A stretch of 64,000 nucleotides of DNA from Gammaproteobacteria bacterium (lineage in GTDB: Bacteria; Pseudomonadota; Gammaproteobacteria; JAUZRS01), in NCBI GenBank assembly GCA_030949385.1, contig JAUZSP010000006.1, positions 252,121 through 316,120 of the forward strand, written 5' to 3'. Position numbers and translations under genes: made by a program. Below the pieces are notes generated by a model. That model saw only the letters and a program-made list of their open reading frames with translations, was not told the origin of the DNA and made no database searches. Of the stretch, positions 1,065 through 11,985 are shown piece after piece (the stretch's first letter is position 1; every line of letters starts with the position of its first letter).

Positions 1065-4000
1065 ATGGATTACAAAGCGGGTTTGTTGTTGGGGTTGTTG
1101 CTGAGCTGTTCTCATCTACAGGCCATGCCGGAGGTATTGTCCATTGATGCCGCACCGTGGGCAGCGGAGTTGCTGGATTCAGCTGCCGTTTTACCCACCG
1201 CGCCGATCAATCAGCGCAGCAAACGCCCGATCAAGGTCAACCACACCCAACTTACCCAACAGTTGAGATCGGCACTCTTTCAACCTTCTGAGCCAAAAAT
1301 AACCCTATTGCAGCAGAGAAGTTTGGCGCGCTTGGCGCAGTTCAGTGGGGGGGTGAATCCGGCGCATTTTAATCCAGACAACGGCACGCCGACGGCGCTG
1401 CGTTTTTTACTGCCTGCGGCAAACAAAACCAACATAAGAAAAAAAGCCAGCGCAGAAACCGTGGCGCGGCGCTTTTTAAACGACTTTCGTGAGCTGTTAA
1501 AACTGTACCAGCCCGAGCAGGAGTTGCTGCTGCTGCGCAGCAGTACCGATGCGCTGGGCAATCGCCACCTGCATTTTCAACAGTTGCATCACGGTGTGCC
1601 GGTGTGGGGTAAGCAGTTGGTGGTGCATCTCGATGCACTGGACCGAGTGTTCTATTTTAACGGTCGTTATCAGCCCTCGTTTGTCACCGCACCCCGCCGC
1701 GTGCAACTCTCTGAGCAAGAGGTGAAAGAGCGTGTTTTGGCTGACCTGAGAATTGTTAAGGCGTGGCAGATTAAGCTTGAACAGGTGATTTACGGCGATA
1801 ACCCCCCCCGTCTGACTTATCGCGTGGATGTGAACCCCACGCTGGACAGTCGTTGGCTTTATTTTGTTGATGCCAGCAGCGGTGAGATTTTGCATCGTTT
1901 AAACAATCTACATGAGGCTGTGCAGCGCAGCAGCGGGGTTGATCTGTTGGGGCGAGCGCAGACCTTCAGCAGTTGGTCACAAGACGGTTTCTCTTACTTG
2001 ATTGATCCGCAGATCCCTCTCAATGATCTGCAACCCGCTGATGACCCGGTTCTCAATGGCCCGAAAAGCAAAGGCGATACCTTTATCTATGATGCTCAGC
2101 AGGGGGATGGCACACAGCTGGAATTTGTCACACAAAACGGGAGTTGGGATCCGGTGGCGGTCAGTGCGATGGTACACACACGGCAGGTGTACGACTATTT
2201 TTTGCAGCAGCACGGGCGGCAGAGCTTGGATGATGAAAATAAAAATTTGCTGGTGGCAATACATTTTGGTGATCGTAAAGACAACGCCTTTTGGAACGGC
2301 AGCATGATGGTCTACGGCGATGGCAATACTCTGTTTGAACCGTTGGCCAAGTGTCTGGATGTGGCGGCACACGAAATGACCCACGGGGTGATCGAAAGCT
2401 CGGCCAATTTGCGTTATGAAAATCAGAGCGGGGCGCTGAACGAATCCTTTGCCGATGTGTTTGCCGCGCTGGTGGATGATAAGGATTGGCTGATTGGTGA
2501 GGACTGCACGTTGGCAGCGCCAAATTACCTGCGCAGTTTGGCCGACCCCCATCTGGGGCGGTTGCGCCAACCGAGCAGCATGGAGGAGTACTTGAATCTG
2601 CCCAATACCCCAGAAGGCGACAACGGCGGGGTACACATCAACAGTGGTATTCCAAATCGTGCTGCGTATTTGATCGCTGAGGCTTTGGGTGGCGATGGGC
2701 GACGTGTGATGGGAGAGATCTATTATCACGCTTTGACTCGCTACTTGACCTCTTCGGCGCAGTTTATTGATGCCCGTCGGGCGTTGATTCAGGCGGCTGT
2801 GGATCTCTACGGCAGCGGTTCGGCTGAGGCGCAAGCGGTGGCTGAGGCGTGGGATCAGGTGGGGGTGTTGGAGGGCAGTTTGAGTTCGGCCAGCGACAAT
2901 CAGCCGCAAGCGGCTCCGCTGGTGGAGGGGGATCAGTTGATGGTCTATTTACGCCCCGAAGACGGCAGCCACGACGGCGGCGTTGATGAGAACTATTTTC
3001 TCTATCTGGATAATCTCAGTGATCCGGCAGCGGCATCGCAGAAGGTGAGTTTGCAGGCGGCCTTTTACAGCAAGGCGGCGCTGTTTACCGATCTGAGCGG
3101 CACTCATGTGTTGTTTGTGGGACAGGATCTGAACCTGTATCGCAGTGATCTGAGTCTGCCGCTTTTTTCGCGCACACGGCGTTTGACCACCGAGGGCAAC
3201 CTCTGGAGTGTGGCGGTCTCGCCTGATGGCCAGTCGATTGCCTACACCACGGCGGCGCTGGATGACAATCGAATTCATCTGCTCTCTTATGCAGGCGGTG
3301 ATGTTGAACAGCGCAGTTTTGCCATTCCACTGCCCAATTATCAGCAGGGTGGCGACAGCTCTTTGGGTTTGGTGCGCTACGCCGATTCGCTCAGTTTTGA
3401 TTACAGTGGCAGCACTCTGCTGTTTGATATGAAGGTCTGTGTGCCGCAGCCGCAGCGCCCCTGTTTGGTGGAGAACGACGGTTCCGGTTACAACTACTGG
3501 TCGATTGGTTTTCTCGATCTGGCACGCTCAACGGCGGAAGTACCGCTGTTTCGGTTTCCCTTTGCTAGCCAAAATCCGTCGATCAGCTTGGGTTATCCGG
3601 TGTTTGCTGCCAACAGCACTTCGGTGATGGCGCTGGATTTGATTGAGCGGGATGCCAATGGGGTGCGTTCGCGGGTGGTGACCATTGATTTTGAAGGGCA
3701 ACGCATCAATACGGTTTATGACTATGTGCGTTTTGGCCGTGATGAGCCTTTTTGGGGGGTGCCGAGTTTTTGGGGTGACGACCTCTCTTTGACTGTGCAG
3801 CAGCCTTTGAACAGTGCAGCAGAGGTCTCTGTTTGCCAAGTGCCTTTGGGTACGGAGAGCAGTGCTTGGGAGGGCGTGACCAGTGGGGTAACGTCGTTGA
3901 ATTCCGCTGCGGTGGCCATGCCGATCATGCATCGTGCTGGGATGCGAGATTTGTCGGCGCGTTTGCAGGCCAGTTCGATGTTGTTGGATTTTGGCGAGGT

Positions 4001-4409
4001 GGCGCTGGGGGCGTTGAAAACACGCTTGGTGACTTTGCACAATGGCGGCAATCGCCCTTTGGATGTGATCTCCATTGAGTTGGATGACGATAATTTTCGC
4101 CATAACGGCAGCAATCTGCGTTTGCAGATTGGCGGCAGTGTCACCTTGGCGATCAATTTTGTGCCGCGCAGCTCGGGGGTGAAAACCTCAACTTTGCGTT
4201 TTATGACCACGGGAGAGCCGTCGGTTCTGTCGGTCTCTTTGAGTGGCAATGTGGTAGCGGTTGAGGGACAGGGAGGGGTCAGTGGTTTTGTGCTATTTGG
4301 CCTCTTATTGATATGGGGGCTTTCTTTGGCTAGACAAGTTGGGCGTGTGCAACGACAATGGGCGCGTTTTGGGAACAGTGGGAAGGGATGTGATTCCAGC
4401 AGAGATTAA
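1065..4409 (+). CDS. Secreted M4 (thermolysin-like) metallopeptidase with beta-propeller and ASH-type C-terminus
   Basis: A 1114-residue exported zinc protease. Residues 1-20 are a signal peptide (cleavage near LQA). Residues about 70-290 look like the FTP/PepSY propeptide of M4 enzymes. The catalytic domain has H436-E437-M-T-H440, the third zinc ligand E460 in ALNESFAD, and the catalytic His524 in GGVHINSG. Residues about 600-940 contain propeller-like repeats such as VSPDGQSIAYTT. Residues about 965-1070 resemble a choice-of-anchor D/ASH immunoglobulin-like domain. The end is Gly-rich, then a membrane helix, then basic residues, reminiscent of GlyGly-CTERM sorting tails. The start is supported by AGGAGG just upstream. 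Most M4 enzymes are about half this length; the extra modules suggest a cell-surface or large-substrate role. Confidence 0.85.
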   Translation: MDYKAGLLLGLLLSCSHLQAMPEVLSIDAAPWAAELLDSAAVLPTAPINQRSKRPIKVNHTQLTQQLRSALFQPSEPKITLLQQRSLARLAQFSGGVNPAHFNPDNGTPTALRFLLPAANKTNIRKKASAETVARRFLNDFRELLKLYQPEQELLLLRSSTDALGNRHLHFQQLHHGVPVWGKQLVVHLDALDRVFYFNGRYQPSFVTAPRRVQLSEQEVKERVLADLRIVKAWQIKLEQVIYGDNPPRLTYRVDVNPTLDSRWLYFVDASSGEILHRLNNLHEAVQRSSGVDLLGRAQTFSSWSQDGFSYLIDPQIPLNDLQPADDPVLNGPKSKGDTFIYDAQQGDGTQLEFVTQNGSWDPVAVSAMVHTRQVYDYFLQQHGRQSLDDENKNLLVAIHFGDRKDNAFWNGSMMVYGDGNTLFEPLAKCLDVAAHEMTHGVIESSANLRYENQSGALNESFADVFAALVDDKDWLIGEDCTLAAPNYLRSLADPHLGRLRQPSSMEEYLNLPNTPEGDNGGVHINSGIPNRAAYLIAEALGGDGRRVMGEIYYHALTRYLTSSAQFIDARRALIQAAVDLYGSGSAEAQAVAEAWDQVGVLEGSLSSASDNQPQAAPLVEGDQLMVYLRPEDGSHDGGVDENYFLYLDNLSDPAAASQKVSLQAAFYSKAALFTDLSGTHVLFVGQDLNLYRSDLSLPLFSRTRRLTTEGNLWSVAVSPDGQSIAYTTAALDDNRIHLLSYAGGDVEQRSFAIPLPNYQQGGDSSLGLVRYADSLSFDYSGSTLLFDMKVCVPQPQRPCLVENDGSGYNYWSIGFLDLARSTAEVPLFRFPFASQNPSISLGYPVFAANSTSVMALDLIERDANGVRSRVVTIDFEGQRINTVYDYVRFGRDEPFWGVPSFWGDDLSLTVQQPLNSAAEVSVCQVPLGTESSAWEGVTSGVTSLNSAAVAMPIMHRAGMRDLSARLQASSMLLDFGEVALGALKTRLVTLHNGGNRPLDVISIELDDDNFRHNGSNLRLQIGGSVTLAINFVPRSSGVKTSTLRFMTTGEPSVLSVSLSGNVVAVEGQGGVSGFVLFGLLLIWGLSLARQVGRVQRQWARFGNSGKGCDSSRD

Positions 4410-5088
4410 AAAAATAGAGGCGGAGTTTAAGCAGCTACAGCAACGCTTGTTGCTTGAGCAGCCGGGTATTGCCGTCGAAGCACAGAAACTGTGGGATCGT
4501 TGGGCAGAGATGTCAGCGCAATTGCCTGCCGTGCCGCGTGCAGCGGATTCGGTGCAGGTGAGCGAACAAGGCGCAGCAATGTTGTTGCTGCTGGGTGAGC
4601 TTTCGTTGTTGCTGGAAAAACGCGGCTTGCAGATGTTTGCTGAGGCGTTTGAGGATCTCTGCTTTCCGTTGGCGCTGTGGCTGGTGAACGCCGGTGCGGA
4701 GCTGCATGAATTGCAGGGGGTGGTGAATGCGTTGGCGCGCTTGGCCAACAGCGTCAGTGATGAGCGAGTGCTGGCGGGTCTGTCGGCCTCCATTGGAGCC
4801 TTGATCCAGCAGGTGACGGCGACGGTCAGCCACGATATGGACAACGCCAATCCGAATCGACCTTGGCGTTTGCTGCTGTTGAATCGGGCTATTATCGCCA
4901 CCCGCAGCCACGATCCGGCTCTGATGAAGGCGGCGTTTGATGCTTTAGTGCATCATTTGCCACTGGATGCGCCGTCGTTTTTCAGCGAGGGGATGCAACA
5001 GATGGTGGCACTGAATTACCCCGAGCGGGTGCGTAAGGTGATGAGTCACTACCACCAGCTTTTTTCTCAGCAGCAGCGTCTGCATTGA
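4390..5088 (+). CDS. Unknown helical protein
   Basis: I do not recognise a family. From the GTG at 4390 the product is 232 residues; ATG 4339 in the same frame is an alternative but would overlap the peptidase gene more deeply. GGAAGGG lies just before the GTG, though the spacing is short. The protein is Leu/Ala/Gln-rich with no signal peptide and no long membrane segment, and looks all-helical: an N-terminal amphipathic stretch (EAEFKQLQQRLLLEQ) suggests a short coiled coil, and the middle resembles helical-repeat proteins. It precedes the DUF971-MoaD gene by 39 bases, so they may be co-transcribed. No function is proposed. Confidence 0.55.
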   Translation: MIPAEIKKIEAEFKQLQQRLLLEQPGIAVEAQKLWDRWAEMSAQLPAVPRAADSVQVSEQGAAMLLLLGELSLLLEKRGLQMFAEAFEDLCFPLALWLVNAGAELHELQGVVNALARLANSVSDERVLAGLSASIGALIQQVTATVSHDMDNANPNRPWRLLLLNRAIIATRSHDPALMKAAFDALVHHLPLDAPSFFSEGMQQMVALNYPERVRKVMSHYHQLFSQQQRLH

Positions 5089-5127: not shown

Positions 5128-5751
5128 ATGGCAAATGAAAAATTTTCCCACACCCCCACGGAATTGAAGCTGCATCGGCAGCAGAAAATGCTGGAGGTCA
5201 GTTTTGACGACGACAGCCACTTTGAGCTTTCCTGTGAGTATTTGCGGGTTTTTTCACCCTCCGCTGAAGTGCGCATTATCTTGGGACGGGGCGAGGTGGT
5301 GTTGGGTAAAGAAGATGTGAACATTGAGCGCATCGAACCCGTAGGTGGTTACGCGGTGCAGCTCCATTTTGATGATGGCCACCATACGGGCATCTACTCT
5401 TGGAAGACCTTGTATGAGCTGGGAGAGAAGCAGAGCAAAAATTGGCTGCAATACAAAGTGACTCGTTTGGAAATGCAACAGGCCAAACCGGAAAGTGGCC
5501 TGAAAACCTTGAATATGCTCTATTTTGTTGATTTTGCGACCAAGTTTCGTCGTGAGTCGGAAGAGATCAAGGTGCCTGAAAAGGTCAATACGGTGCAATT
5601 GCTGCTGACCCATCTGTGCAAACGCGGCAAGGTGTGGCAGGAGTGTTTGGGCAAAGGTCTGGTGAAGGTGACGGTCAATCGGCAGTTTGCCAACCCTGAA
5701 ACCACGATCAAAAGCGGCGATGAGATCGCGCTGGTACCTGCGCCAGTGTGA
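5128..5751 (+). CDS. DUF971 domain fused to a MoaD/ThiS-like domain
   Basis: 207 residues. About 10-115 form a DUF971 domain, related to the small N-terminal domain of gamma-butyrobetaine hydroxylase, with the typical GGYAVQLHFDDGHHTGIYSW core. Residues about 127-207 resemble MoaD: a strand with LYFVDFATKF, the helix VQLLLTHLCKRG, and VTVNRQFANP...SGDEIALVPAPV, matching MoaD's N-x-x-x ... DGDEVAFFPPV end. MoaD and ThiS normally end in Gly-Gly, which is adenylated and thiocarboxylated; this protein stops at PAPV, so it cannot carry sulfur that way. Stand-alone DUF971 proteins are about 110-130 residues. The domain may have a binding or regulatory role in molybdopterin or Fe-S metabolism, but that is only a guess. 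Confidence 0.75.
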   Translation: MANEKFSHTPTELKLHRQQKMLEVSFDDDSHFELSCEYLRVFSPSAEVRIILGRGEVVLGKEDVNIERIEPVGGYAVQLHFDDGHHTGIYSWKTLYELGEKQSKNWLQYKVTRLEMQQAKPESGLKTLNMLYFVDFATKFRRESEEIKVPEKVNTVQLLLTHLCKRGKVWQECLGKGLVKVTVNRQFANPETTIKSGDEIALVPAPV

Positions 5752-5799: not shown

Positions 5800-5843
5800 A
5801 CGGCGCTGCGCCGAGGGGTGCGTTTTTCTATAAGGGGTGAGTG

Positions 5844-6374
5844 ATGGCACGAGGCATTAACAAAGTCATTTTGGTGGGCAATTTGGGCAACGATCCCGAA
5901 GTCAAATACATGCCCAGCGGCAGCGCAGTGGCCAACATTACTCTGGCCACCTCTCGCTCTTGGAAAGACAAACAGACCGGTCAGCAACAGGAAGAGACTG
6001 AGTGGCATCGGGTTAGCTTTTTTGGTCGGTTGGCGGAAGTGGTGGGCGAATACCTGAAAAAAGGCTCGCAGGTCTACATCGAAGGCCGTCTGCGTACCCG
6101 CAAATGGCAGGATAAAGCCACCGGTGCGGATCGTTACAGCACTGAAATCGTTGCCAATGAGATGCAGATGTTGGGCGGTCGCACAGGCGGCAGTGCTGAA
6201 TACCAAGCCCCACAACAGCAGTACGCACCAAGACAGCCACAACAAGCGCCGCAACAGCAGGGAATGCAACAGCAACAAGCGCCGCAACAGCAGCAGCAAC
6301 CTGCGCAGCAGTCGGGTTACGTTGCTCCCAGCGGCGGCATGGATGGCGATTTTGATGACGACATCCCGTTTTAA
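5844..6374 (+). CDS. ssb: Single-stranded DNA-binding protein SSB
   Basis: 176 residues. Binds single-stranded DNA during replication, recombination and repair, usually as a tetramer. The N-terminal OB-fold (about 1-110) starts [15 protein letters not shown] and contains [13 protein letters not shown] and [13 protein letters not shown], standard SSB blocks. Residues about 120-165 are a Gln/Pro-rich flexible linker, and the C-terminus is DFDDDIPF, the acidic tip that recruits partner proteins. An in-frame GTG lies one codon earlier, but AAGGGG at 5832-5837 is better spaced for the ATG at 5844. A strong terminator follows, so ssb probably forms its own transcription unit. Confidence 0.97.
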
Positions 6375-6465: not shown

Positions 6466-7482
<1,017 letters not shown>

Positions 7483-7497
7483 CCGAGTTACTCAATT

Positions 7498-8646
7498 ATG
7501 ATCCCTTACGGTCGGCAAGAAATTTTGGCAGAAGACATTGAGGCGGTGGTTGCGGTGTTGCAGTCGGACTTCATCACTCAAGGGCCGGCGGTGGTGCAGT
7601 TTGAGCAGGCCTTGGCCAAGGAGGTGGGCGCCGCGCAGGCGGTGGCCTTTAACAGCGCCACCTCGGCGCTGCATGTGGCCTGTTTGGCACTGGGTTTGGG
7701 TGCGGGGGATTGGCTCTGGACGGTGCCGAACACCTTTGTCGCCTCGGCCAATTGTGCTTTCTACTGTGGCGCTCAGGTGGACTTTGTTGATATTGATCCT
7801 CGTTCGTACAATATGTGCGTCGATGCCTTGGCGGAAAAACTGCGCTGGGCGGAAGGTGCGGGAAAATTGCCCAAGGTGGTGATTCCGGTGCATTTTGCCG
7901 GTCAATCCTGTCAGATGTCTGAGATCAAGGCGCTGGCAGATCAGTACGGGTTTTGCCTGATCGAAGACGCTTCACATGCCATTGGTGGGCGTTATTTGGA
8001 TCAGCCCATTGGTGCGTGTCAATACGCGGACATCACTGTGTTTAGTTTTCATCCGGTGAAAATCATCACCACCGCTGAGGGCGGAGTGGCAACCTGCAAG
8101 AGTAAACAACTGGCCGCTACTCTGGCGCGTTTGCGCAGCCACGGCGTGACTCGTGATCCGAGTGTGATCTCCGCTCAGGATGAGGGCGGTTGGTATTATG
8201 AGCAGATCGAATTGGGCTTTAATTACCGCATGAGCGATCTGCATGCGGCCTTGGGTGTCAGTCAATTGCAGCGTTTATCGGCTTACATTGAGCGCCGCGA
8301 TGAGGTTAAGCAGCGTTACGATGCGCTGCTGTCTGACCTGCCTTTGACCGTGCCGTGGCAGCACCCTGATAGCCATTCGGCGCTGCACCTCTATCCGATT
8401 CAACTGCATGATCCTGCCGAGCGACGGCGGGTGTTTGATGACTTACGACAAGCCGGTATTGGGGTGAATGTGCATTACATCCCCGTGCACACGCAGCCTT
8501 TTTATCAAAAAAGGGGCTTTGCTTGGGGCGATTTTCCGCAAGCAGAAGCCTATTATCAGGGGGCGATTTCTTTACCGATGTTCCCCACTTTGAGCGAGGC
8601 GCAACAGGATGAGGTGGTGGTGGCGCTGCAAAAGGCGTTGACGTGA
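7498..8646 (+). CDS. pseC: UDP-4-amino-4,6-dideoxy-L-altrosamine transaminase, PseC
   Basis: 382 residues, DegT/DnrJ/EryC1/StrS family, PLP-dependent. It aminates C4 of the PseB product with glutamate as donor. Visible family marks: N-terminal YGRQEILAEDIEAV, NSATSALHVACLALG (PLP phosphate site), IEDASHAIGG, and FSFHPVKIITTAEGG, whose Lys forms the Schiff base. It starts 15 bases after pseB and its stop overlaps the pseF start, consistent with an operon. Confidence 0.95.
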   Translation: MIPYGRQEILAEDIEAVVAVLQSDFITQGPAVVQFEQALAKEVGAAQAVAFNSATSALHVACLALGLGAGDWLWTVPNTFVASANCAFYCGAQVDFVDIDPRSYNMCVDALAEKLRWAEGAGKLPKVVIPVHFAGQSCQMSEIKALADQYGFCLIEDASHAIGGRYLDQPIGACQYADITVFSFHPVKIITTAEGGVATCKSKQLAATLARLRSHGVTRDPSVISAQDEGGWYYEQIELGFNYRMSDLHAALGVSQLQRLSAYIERRDEVKQRYDALLSDLPLTVPWQHPDSHSALHLYPIQLHDPAERRRVFDDLRQAGIGVNVHYIPVHTQPFYQKRGFAWGDFPQAEAYYQGAISLPMFPTLSEAQQDEVVVALQKALT

Positions 8647-9332
8647 CGGTCTGTGTGATTCCCGCTCGGGGTGGCAGCAAACGCATTGCTCGGAAAAATC
8701 TGCGCGAGTTTTGTGGCAAACCGATGCTGGTGTGGTCTATTGAAGCGGCGCTAGAGAGCGGTTGTTTTGCGGCGGTGATGCTTTCCACGGAAGATGAAGA
8801 GATTGCTGAGCTTGCTCGTGCGCACGGCGCAGAGGTGCCTTTTGTGCGTCCCGCTGAGTTGGCGGACGATTACGCAACTACGGGAGCGGTGATGGCACAC
8901 GCGGTGGCGTGGTTGGCGGAAAAGAGCCGTGAGGCGCAGGAGGCCTGCTGCCTTTATGCCACCGCGCCGTTTGTGCAAGCGCAGGATCTGCGCGACGGTT
9001 TGCAGCGTTTGCGTGAATCGCAGGCAGAGTATGTTTTTAGCGTCACCGATTACGCCTTTCCCATTCAGCGCGCTTTGCGTTTGCAGGCCGACGGTTCGGT
9101 GGCGATGTTTCAGCCTGAGCAGTTTCAAACACGTTCACAGGATTTGGAGCAGGCGTACCACGATGCGGGGCAGTTTTATTGGGGCAAAAGCGCAGCGTGG
9201 CTGAGTGCAAAGCCGGTGTTTGAATCGGCCTTACCGCTGATTTTGCCCTCTCATCGAGTACAGGACATCGACACGGAAGAGGATTGGCGGCGGGCGGAGT
9301 GGCTGTTTAAAGCGATGTTGGCCAGCCGATGA
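8643..9332 (+). CDS. pseF: Pseudaminic acid cytidylyltransferase, PseF
   Basis: 229 residues with a GTG start overlapping the pseC stop. Activates pseudaminic acid with CTP to CMP-pseudaminic acid, the donor for glycosyltransfer. The N-terminus VIPARGGSKRIARKNLREF is the nucleotide-binding loop of the CMP-sialic acid/CMP-Kdo synthetase family; later SVTDYAFPIQRAL and the C-terminal VQDIDTEEDWRRAEW match PseF enzymes. Its place between pseC and pseG supports PseF rather than NeuA. Confidence 0.93.
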   Translation: MTVCVIPARGGSKRIARKNLREFCGKPMLVWSIEAALESGCFAAVMLSTEDEEIAELARAHGAEVPFVRPAELADDYATTGAVMAHAVAWLAEKSREAQEACCLYATAPFVQAQDLRDGLQRLRESQAEYVFSVTDYAFPIQRALRLQADGSVAMFQPEQFQTRSQDLEQAYHDAGQFYWGKSAAWLSAKPVFESALPLILPSHRVQDIDTEEDWRRAEWLFKAMLASR

Positions 9333-10420
9333 AGGTTGCCTTTCGAGTGGATGCCTCATTGGAGATGGGCAGTGGTCATCTGATGCGCTGTTTGACCTTG
9401 GCCGAGGAGTTGAGAACACAGGGCGCGGATGTACTTTTTGTTTGCCGTGAACATCTTGGTCACATGGCTGAGTTTGTTCGGCAGCGCGGTTTTGAGGTTT
9501 TTCTGTTGCCACGCAATCAGGACGTTGAGTTGAGTCGAGACGATGATTTACCTGCACACGCGCCGTGGTTGGGCTGTGATTGGCAGGTGGATGCACAGCA
9601 GACTCGGCAACAGATTCAGAGCCTTCAGCTTGAGTGGTTGGTGGTAGACCATTATGCCTTGGATGCGCGCTGGGAATCTGAACTGCGCGACTGTTGTCAG
9701 CAGATTATGGTGATTGATGATTTGGCGGATCGGCAGCACGATTGTGATCTGTTGTTGGATCAGACTCTGGGGCGTTTGGCAGTGGAGTACGCTAATTTGG
9801 TACCGTCAGACTGCAAAACAGTGACGGGGTCAGACTACGCGCTGTTGCGACCTGAATTTGCTCAGTGGCGTGAGCGAAGTTTGCAGCGGCGGAAAGCGCC
9901 TGAGTTGCGGCACATTTTGATCAGCTTGGGGGGCGTGGATCAGGACAACGTGACGGGGCAGGTGTTGGCGGCTTTAAAAACAGTCTCTTTAGTCGAAGAG
10001 TGCCAGATTACGGTGGTGATGGGCGCGCAGGCTCCGCATTTGTCTGCGGTGCAGGCTGCGGCAGCGCAGATGCCGTGGTTGACGCAGGTGCGGGTCAATA
10101 TCAGCACGATGGCTGAGGTGATGGCGCAAAGTGATTTGGCCATCGGTGCGGCAGGGAGCAGCTCTTGGGAGCGCTGTTGTTTGGGGCTGCCGACGTTGCT
10201 GCTGGTGTTGGCGGAGAACCAAAAAGTGAGTGCTCAGGCGCAGCAACAGGCGGGGTCGGTGGTGTTGTTGTGCCGCGAGTCTCTGCCTGATGATCTACGA
10301 GAAGCGATGCAGCGAATGGCTGTGACAGACGTGCTGGCGGATTTGAGCGTTAATGCACGGAAGCTGTGTGATGGCTTGGGGGCGCGGCGGGTGGTGTCTT
10401 GTTTATCGGTGGTGGCATAA
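9329..10420 (+). CDS. pseG: UDP-2,4-diacetamido-2,4,6-trideoxy-L-altropyranose hydrolase, PseG
   Basis: 363 residues with a GT-B-like fold. Cleaves UDP from the diacetamido sugar made by PseB, PseC and PseH, releasing the free sugar for PseI. The N-terminus FRVDASLEMGSGHLMRC is characteristic of PseG (the G-S-G-H-x-x-R loop with the catalytic His). LVVDHYALDARWE and GAAGSSSWERCCLGLP are the other two conserved blocks, the latter forming the nucleotide site. The start overlaps the pseF stop by four bases (ATGA). Confidence 0.93.
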   Translation: MKVAFRVDASLEMGSGHLMRCLTLAEELRTQGADVLFVCREHLGHMAEFVRQRGFEVFLLPRNQDVELSRDDDLPAHAPWLGCDWQVDAQQTRQQIQSLQLEWLVVDHYALDARWESELRDCCQQIMVIDDLADRQHDCDLLLDQTLGRLAVEYANLVPSDCKTVTGSDYALLRPEFAQWRERSLQRRKAPELRHILISLGGVDQDNVTGQVLAALKTVSLVEECQITVVMGAQAPHLSAVQAAAAQMPWLTQVRVNISTMAEVMAQSDLAIGAAGSSSWERCCLGLPTLLLVLAENQKVSAQAQQQAGSVVLLCRESLPDDLREAMQRMAVTDVLADLSVNARKLCDGLGARRVVSCLSVVA

Positions 10421-10421
10421 C

Positions 10422-10934
10422 ATGGGTTCACCTTTGCGGATCATGCGGCGTGAGGATCTGTCATCGGTGCTTGAATGGCGCAATCGCCCTGAGGTGCGCA
10501 GCTGTATGTTGACTCAACATGAGATTCGTTGGGATGAGCATTGTGCTTGGTTTGAACGAGCCAGCCGAGATCCGCGCAAGCGCTTGTTTATTTTTGAGCA
10601 GGAGGGTTCTTTGGGCTTTGCCCATTTGAGCTGCATTAATGCCACGGTGGCGGAGTGGGGCTTTTATTTGGCTGCTGGGGCGAAAAAAGGCGCGGGGACG
10701 TTGCTGGGTTTGGCGACCTTGCGTTATGCGTTTGAGACGTTGGCTCTGCACAAGGTTGCAGGACAGGCCTTGGCCGATAACAGCCGTTCAATTGCGTTGC
10801 ATCATAAGCTGGGTTTTCGGCGTGAAGGTGAGTTGCGTGATCATCATTTTGACGGTGAACGGCATTGCACTCTGCTCTGTTTTGGTCTGTTGCAACAGGA
10901 GTGGTGCGAGAAGTGGGTAGGGCAAAATGAATAA
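10422..10934 (+). CDS. pseH: Pseudaminic acid pathway N-acetyltransferase, PseH
   Basis: 170 residues from ATG 10422, just after the pseG stop. The frame is open further upstream, but that part would lie inside pseG. GNAT family: transfers acetyl from acetyl-CoA to the 4-amino group. The N-terminus MRREDLSSVLEWRNRPEVR and the block DNSRSIALHHKLGFRREGE (acetyl-CoA site and C-terminal half) are typical of PseH/RimJ-like enzymes. Overlaps pseI by eight bases. The acetyl donor specificity is inferred from the pathway. Confidence 0.9.
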   Translation: MGSPLRIMRREDLSSVLEWRNRPEVRSCMLTQHEIRWDEHCAWFERASRDPRKRLFIFEQEGSLGFAHLSCINATVAEWGFYLAAGAKKGAGTLLGLATLRYAFETLALHKVAGQALADNSRSIALHHKLGFRREGELRDHHFDGERHCTLLCFGLLQQEWCEKWVGQNE

Positions 10935-11985
10935 ACAGGCGATAAACATTGCGCAACGCCGGATTGCGCGAAACGAACCGCCTTATGTGATTGCTGAACT
11001 GTCGGCGAACCATAACGGCCAGTTAGAAAAGGCCTTGCAGATTATCGAGGTGGCAAAAAGGTCAGGTGCTGATGCGGTGAAGCTGCAAACCTATCGCCCC
11101 GATACCATCACTCTGGATTGTGACTCTGAAGAGTTTCAAATTAAAGGGGGTTTGTGGGATGGGCGTACTTTGTATGAGCTTTATGAAGAAGCGCACATGC
11201 CGTGGGAGTGGCATAAACCGCTGTTTGAGTATGCTCAGAAATTAGGCATTACGATGTTCAGCTCGCCTTTTGATAACAGTGCCGTGGATCTGTTGGAAGA
11301 TCTAAATACACCGGCGTATAAAATTGCTTCTTTTGAGGCAGTGGATCTGCCCTTAATTAAGTACGTCGCTGCAACGGGAAAACCGATGATCATCTCCACC
11401 GGCATGGCCAATGCCGAGGAGATGGCCGAAGCGGTGCAAGCGGCTCGTGATGGCGGCTGTCAGGAACTGGCTTTGCTGCATTGCGTCAGTGGTTATCCCG
11501 CTCCGGCGGGGGATTACAATCTGCGTACGATGGTGGATATGCAGCAGAAATTTGACCTGCCCATTGGTCTTTCTGATCACACCATCGACAATACTACTGC
11601 CATTGCCAGTGTTGCTTTGGGTGCGTGCATTATTGAAAAGCACGTCACCTTGGATCGCAGCGGGGGTGGGCCGGATGACCGTTTTTCTTTGGAGCCAAAA
11701 GAGTTGGCTGCTCTCTGTGAAGGTGCTAAAACAGCATGGTCGGCCTTGGGTAAAGTCAATTACGGTCGGAAATCGAGTGAGCAGGGTAATGTGCAGTTTC
11801 GTCGTTCGCTCTATTTCGTTAAAGATATGCAGGCCGGTGAGGTGATTGCAGCAGAGTGTGTGCGCAGTGTGCGACCTGGATTTGGTTTGGCTCCTAAGTA
11901 TTTGGATGCGATTCTGGGGCGGCGTTTGTTGCACTCTGTTTCAGCTAACACCGCCGTTCGTTTTGAACTGTTGGCCGATGTTTGA
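10927..11985 (+). CDS. pseI: Pseudaminic acid synthase, PseI
   Basis: 352 residues, NeuB family. Condenses 2,4-diacetamido-2,4,6-trideoxy-L-altrose with phosphoenolpyruvate to pseudaminic acid. The TIM-barrel part has VIAELSANHNGQLEKAL, ADAVKLQTYRPDT and MFSSPFDNSAVDLLE. The C-terminal SAF/antifreeze-like domain (about 290-350) has FRRSLYFVKDMQAGEVI and VRSVRPGFGL. N-terminal S-A-N-H-N-G and the context of five other pse genes favour PseI over NeuB or LegI. All six pathway enzymes are therefore contiguous. Confidence 0.95.
   Translation: MNKQAINIAQRRIARNEPPYVIAELSANHNGQLEKALQIIEVAKRSGADAVKLQTYRPDTITLDCDSEEFQIKGGLWDGRTLYELYEEAHMPWEWHKPLFEYAQKLGITMFSSPFDNSAVDLLEDLNTPAYKIASFEAVDLPLIKYVAATGKPMIISTGMANAEEMAEAVQAARDGGCQELALLHCVSGYPAPAGDYNLRTMVDMQQKFDLPIGLSDHTIDNTTAIASVALGACIIEKHVTLDRSGGGPDDRFSLEPKELAALCEGAKTAWSALGKVNYGRKSSEQGNVQFRRSLYFVKDMQAGEVIAAECVRSVRPGFGLAPKYLDAILGRRLLHSVSANTAVRFELLADV

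Follow-up and report, generated by a model that had tools for sequence, protein, structure and literature searches.

A DUF971 domain and a MoaD-type domain are fused in a single open reading frame at positions 5128-5751 (forward strand) of the window, that is, of the whole 64,000-nucleotide stretch of gammaproteobacterial DNA analysed here. The encoded protein ends in VPAPV, directly followed by the stop codons TGA and TAA. The coordinates and the domain order of the original prediction, with DUF971 first and a MoaD-like domain second, were borne out by ORF reading and Pfam. The features of the locus, with the basis of each assignment in parentheses, are the following:

4339..5088, forward strand: upstream ORF of 249 aa, no Pfam match, possibly co-transcribed with the fusion (ORF reading)
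5128..5751, forward strand: DUF971-MoaD-like fusion gene, 207 aa (ORF reading)
5167..5415, forward strand: DUF971 / GBBH-like_N domain (PF06155), residues 14-96 (Pfam, fold matches)
5416..5505, forward strand: helix and linker, residues 97-126, with low model confidence around residue 120 (AlphaFold2 model)
5506..5748, forward strand: MoaD-type beta-grasp domain, residues 127-207 (Pfam, NCBIfam, AlphaFold2, Foldseek, VIA-align)
5737..5748, forward strand: PAPV, the final four residues, where MoaD continues to Gly-Gly (sequence, VIA-align)
5841..6374, forward strand: gene for a single-strand DNA-binding protein (SSB), downstream of the fusion (ORF reading)

The 249-aa upstream ORF was found only in the source and same-genus loci among 57 fusion loci, and a promoter and terminator scan gave nothing useful. 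Elsewhere in the window, ORFs inspected by eye included one of 1114 aa that looks like a secreted metalloprotease of the thermolysin type (1065-4409) and a long run of sugar-modification and surface polysaccharide genes (6475-42281), the first part of which (6475-11985) reads like a pathway of the pseudaminic- or legionaminic-acid type.

Both halves of the protein were recognised by profile searches. PF06155 matched residues 14-96 (E 2.8e-27, 95.7 bits relative to a Pfam cut-off of 22.8) over positions 2-85 of its 85, so that the DUF971 domain is complete, and ThiS (PF02597) matched residues 141-205 (E 1.5e-8, 35.5 bits, cut-off 22.5). An AlphaFold2 model of the protein, built on a 28-row alignment with only 5 rows in the MoaD part, had a mean pLDDT of 82.7 and a pTM of 0.54, the latter making the relative placement of the two domains unreliable. 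Residues 125-204 of the model follow the MoaD order of elements (strand-helix-strand-helix-helix-strand-strand-strand), and residues 127-207 aligned with residues 1-79 of the 81 in Escherichia coli MoaD (1nvi_D/1fm0_D; Z 12.5/12.4, rmsd 1.8-1.9, VIA-align). The window protein therefore ends two residues short, right before Gly80-Gly81, and the beta-grasp fold expected past residue 127 is present in the model. In the Foldseek ranking, the DUF971 structures 2l6n, 2l6p and 3luu came first, followed by MoaD 1fm0_D of E. coli molybdopterin synthase (E 2.2e-5); the DUF971 part aligned with 2l6n, 3luu and 2l6p at Z 13.0-13.5, with 38-50% identity to the solved members. RnfH was represented by a weak Foldseek match (8ahx chain H, E 0.016), with no RnfH profile among the Pfam and NCBIfam matches. 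The model of a second fusion, from an Escarpia symbiont (L036), contained the same beta-grasp elements, with confidence dropping in its proline-rich tail. The C-terminal domain shares with MoaD (TIGR01682) its fold, its order of strands and helices and a sequence match at 1e-10 (42.3 bits), but it lies under the equivalog cut-off of 66.15, stands behind DUF971 rather than beside moaE, and lacks Gly-Gly.

A contig scan gave 43 relatives, including four fusions (L034-L037), of which one is truncated on its 5' side. In the family around the Escarpia symbiont, genome searches with a six-row profile detected full-length fusions in 53 of 96 genomes; across the class the figure was 21 of 369, and among 398 genomes sampled from the phylum the source genome's own fusion was the sole match at E 1e-50. 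Fifteen further regions were fetched, one of which (L254) gave no fusion ORF. After removal of L178 and L179, which had the same contig coordinates as L144 and L165, 73 distinct fusions were retained; three of these lack the 5' part at contig ends (L037, L169, L195) and one is broken (L173), with the C-terminus present in all. In a Sedimenticola genome, two contig ends (L074 4194-4457 and L037 1-546) hold overlapping fusion-type pieces, which may be two copies or a single gene divided by the assembly. A literature search, with most subscription papers outside its reach, found no title or abstract on a DUF971-MoaD fusion.

Ubiquitin's ancestor is considered a relative of MoaD and ThiS, whose Gly-Gly tail is the reactive end. 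None of the 73 fusions ends in Gly-Gly, nor does any contain GG within its last 15 residues, and the absence of Gly-Gly is a fixed, family-wide trait of the DUF971-MoaD fusions and no local truncation. Tails in the larger group mostly read VPxSPxPP and beyond, while others are short (PAPV, PAPK, PKPM, PVPR). As a control, all 30 stand-alone MoaD/ThiS proteins from fusion-bearing genomes ended in GG; these were matches with a locus and mostly top-scoring, a choice that may favour complete tails, and other stand-alone matches, including a few partial ones within larger frames, were left out of the control. The source genome itself encodes a separate MoaD (tail PPVTGG) adjoining MoaE, both on another contig than the fusion, which has no moaE beside it, as well as a ThiS ending in GG. 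Gly-Gly is required for the known adenylation and thiocarboxylation of MoaD and ThiS, an established mechanism also described in PMC1779556, and the tails, together with the alignment to MoaD 1-79, support the earlier expectation that a domain stopping at PAPV could not be thiocarboxylated. That the fusion still serves as a carrier or modifier, after processing of the tail or with another terminal residue, is very improbable: two fusions do end in Ala-Gly (L127, L194), but tail length and last residue vary and GG is missing near every end, and within the source genus the last codon has changed freely, from GTG in the window to AAG in genome G001 (Val to Lys). A frameshift or a tail lost downstream was considered and rejected, as alignment of the window with the same-genus DNA revealed no in-frame GG past the stop, and the sequence right after the stop differs.

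Wherever dS allowed an estimate, purifying selection was evident in both halves of the fusion. Between the window and the same-genus gene (G001) there were 22 synonymous and 3 non-synonymous differences, of which 12 and 2, respectively, fell in the MoaD part, whose two non-synonymous changes are both in the last codon. Across 12 further pairs, dN/dS never exceeded 0.21 for either half where dS was finite. The MoaD parts of the 73 fusions formed one clade relative to 18 stand-alone MoaD proteins (support 0.979, and 0.973 with the tail cut off). In the DUF971 tree, which took in 69 of the 73 fusions (four with short DUF971 parts were omitted), 68 grouped in one clade with a support of only 0.625. 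The single MoaD clade and the purifying selection point to one old fusion that lost its carrier chemistry, rather than to decay. Although one fusion (L173) has its frame broken by a stop, a decaying gene, a frameshift or an assembly artefact is hardly credible as a general explanation, given the strength of the selection, the intact genes in many genomes and the lack of the GG tail in all. Trees and tails would be best explained by a single event in which a gammaproteobacterial DUF971 protein acquired a MoaD domain at its C-terminus, the Gly-Gly tail probably having been lost ahead of the family's spread.

The recurrence of the same Gly-Gly-less arrangement in many related bacteria suggests that the fold has been recruited to some task other than sulfur transport, and the data are best read as such a non-carrier use of the ubiquitin-like fold. 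It agrees with the scaffold use proposed in the original prediction, the fold being kept under selection while Gly-Gly is absent family-wide. We infer that the MoaD-type domain would act by binding, having been retained for docking while taking no part in sulfur chemistry, and put the probability of this role at roughly 0.6. Two positions are nearly fixed, F133 (73 of 73 fusions) and F187 (72 of 73), and by our own mapping they align with two residues of E. coli MoaD, Phe7 and Leu59, that belong to its hydrophobic patch for docking to MoaE and MoeB; no paper with these residues appeared among the literature matches listed. The surface may thus have outlasted the reactive end. The same two aromatic positions, with the MoaD fold, could also be read as those of a decoy that regulates molybdenum cofactor synthesis by docking on MoaE or MoeB like MoaD and blocking them for want of Gly-Gly. 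MoaE was found in 65 of the 73 fusion-bearing genomes, but the other eight gave no MoaE match (some may be incomplete genomes), one of these eight (G043, 96% complete) also lacking a stand-alone MoaD match, and no fusion was noticed beside moa genes, so that a decoy function seems unlikely.

Beta-grasp domains of ThiS/MoaD-like or TGS-like type are known outside sulfur transfer from PMC1779556, which describes a ubiquitin-like domain fused to Mut7-C RNase, and RnfH, closest to TGS and not to MoaD. The present fusion would resemble both in using a beta-grasp outside sulfur transfer, differs from them in its partner domain, and would add a further variant. With the MoaD fold kept under selection and the tail dropped in every fusion read, it offers a clear example of a carrier that has taken on another function, probably as a binding module.

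As to the DUF971 half, this domain forms part of HCF101 Fe-S proteins, for which PMC7980591 discusses a CxCxxC motif as a possible metal site and terms the role of the domain elusive; the fusion to a MoaD-type domain provides a handle on it. In the window protein, the corresponding position reads SPSAEV (residues 43-48), and none of 57 aligned fusions has Cys at the first two positions of the motif, an SPAAEV-like sequence taking its place. The link to cofactor or Fe-S proteins suggested earlier for DUF971 thus found no support in the fusions, and a metal or Fe-S role through the CxCxxC site appears unlikely from the residues present. A metal or Fe-S scaffold built on the DUF971 domain is rated as quite improbable: HCF101 and an A-type Fe-S carrier adjoining the fusion in one locus (G043) would speak for it, but CxCxxC is absent, and Cys36, present in 65 of the 73 fusions, cannot by itself make that site. 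A zinc-binding N-terminal domain was sought in PMC12067446 and not found there. A DUF971 protein, AUB81090.1, is listed in a table of differentially expressed Thiodictyon proteins in PMC6413534.

Gene neighbourhoods differed widely between fusion loci, and a conserved operon around the fusion was rejected; clustering of flanking ORFs (four of the 57 loci left out) revealed no neighbour common to most loci. Recurring neighbours, in 11 to 14 of the 57 loci each, were a TauD-family dioxygenase, a radical SAM protein, a response regulator and a sensor kinase. The TauD gene lay upstream of the fusion, within about 330 bases and on the same strand, in 14 loci, and the radical SAM gene lay upstream in 13. 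Of 40 loci with a stand-alone DUF971 gene, 36 had hslUV or ubiE/ubiJ/ubiB close by, whereas hslUV/ubiE/ubiJ/ubiB queries matched just one of the 73 fusion loci; the fusion thus differs from stand-alone DUF971 both in its added MoaD-type domain and in lying away from this context.

The TauD adjacency is the best contextual clue to a candidate partner, though it is absent from the window, where the fusion has no neighbouring TauD, the TauD relative of the source genome lying on another contig. Gamma-butyrobetaine hydroxylase (3n6w) and TmpA (6npb) carry an N-terminal domain with the DUF971 fold (Z 9.7 and 9.2, respectively), but with the dioxygenase in the same chain, which for the fusion is at most a neighbouring gene; the TauD protein beside the Escarpia symbiont fusion has no GBBH-like_N domain of its own. 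With DUF971 having the fold of this N-terminal domain, and a TauD without DUF971 often just upstream, such a dioxygenase or its complex would be the likeliest single partner, an assignment that we regard as tentative. Spelled out, the fusion may serve a TauD-family dioxygenase as an accessory or regulatory subunit, the two together corresponding to a gamma-butyrobetaine hydroxylase split so that DUF971 is supplied in trans, perhaps in the metabolism of quinones. This proposal is a special case of the docking reading, with which its probability overlaps, and it is conceivable rather than probable. The occurrence of TauD with UbiU/UbiV and/or UbiT in some genomes, and the ubi context of stand-alone DUF971, are consistent with it. 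Against it, adjacency is confined to a minority of loci and TauD is frequent without the fusion: in a sample of 37 fusion-bearing genomes (18 of them picked from those without adjacent TauD) and 43 fusion-free ones, TauD matches were obtained in 34 and 31, respectively (Fisher p 0.042, uncorrected for kinship). Among 20 other TauD regions, a fusion was nearby in only one, about 9.6 kb off, while UbiU/UbiV and UbiT-like genes accompanied TauD in three and UbiT alone in one more. In favour of a TauD link, the adjacency recurred in several parts of the fusion tree, with 9 parsimony changes relative to a shuffled mean of 13. In the most far-reaching version, which is doubtful, 'blank' MoaD domains, chemically silenced once and then conserved, would provide the docking half of a DUF971 subunit that gammaproteobacterial TauD-family dioxygenases use in detachable form, and oxygen-dependent hydroxylation would be tied to the neighbourhood of the UbiUVT quinone genes.

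Several further arrangements were observed in the TauD and fusion regions. A TauD gene directly follows UbiU-UbiV, with UbiT-like genes near, at L232 9858-12627, L237 2839-5899 and L241 3170-5977, so that an oxygen-dependent enzyme family adjoins oxygen-independent ubiquinone genes; the words 'TauD' and 'dioxygenase' are absent from the main text of PMC6747719. In two genomes (L228 6002-7140 and L229 5832-6946), TauD is immediately preceded by the gene of a canonical MoaD with a Gly-Gly end, while MoaE is on another contig. In two loci (L249, L251), genes resembling aprB and aprA lie close to the fusion, the L249 protein having an APS-reductase match and the other labels being given by eye. 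Beside the TauD gene of the source genome (L230 7605-11553), genes reading by eye like dsrA, dsrB, dsrE, dsrF, dsrH and dsrC were present, which suggests that the source organism is a sulfur oxidiser.
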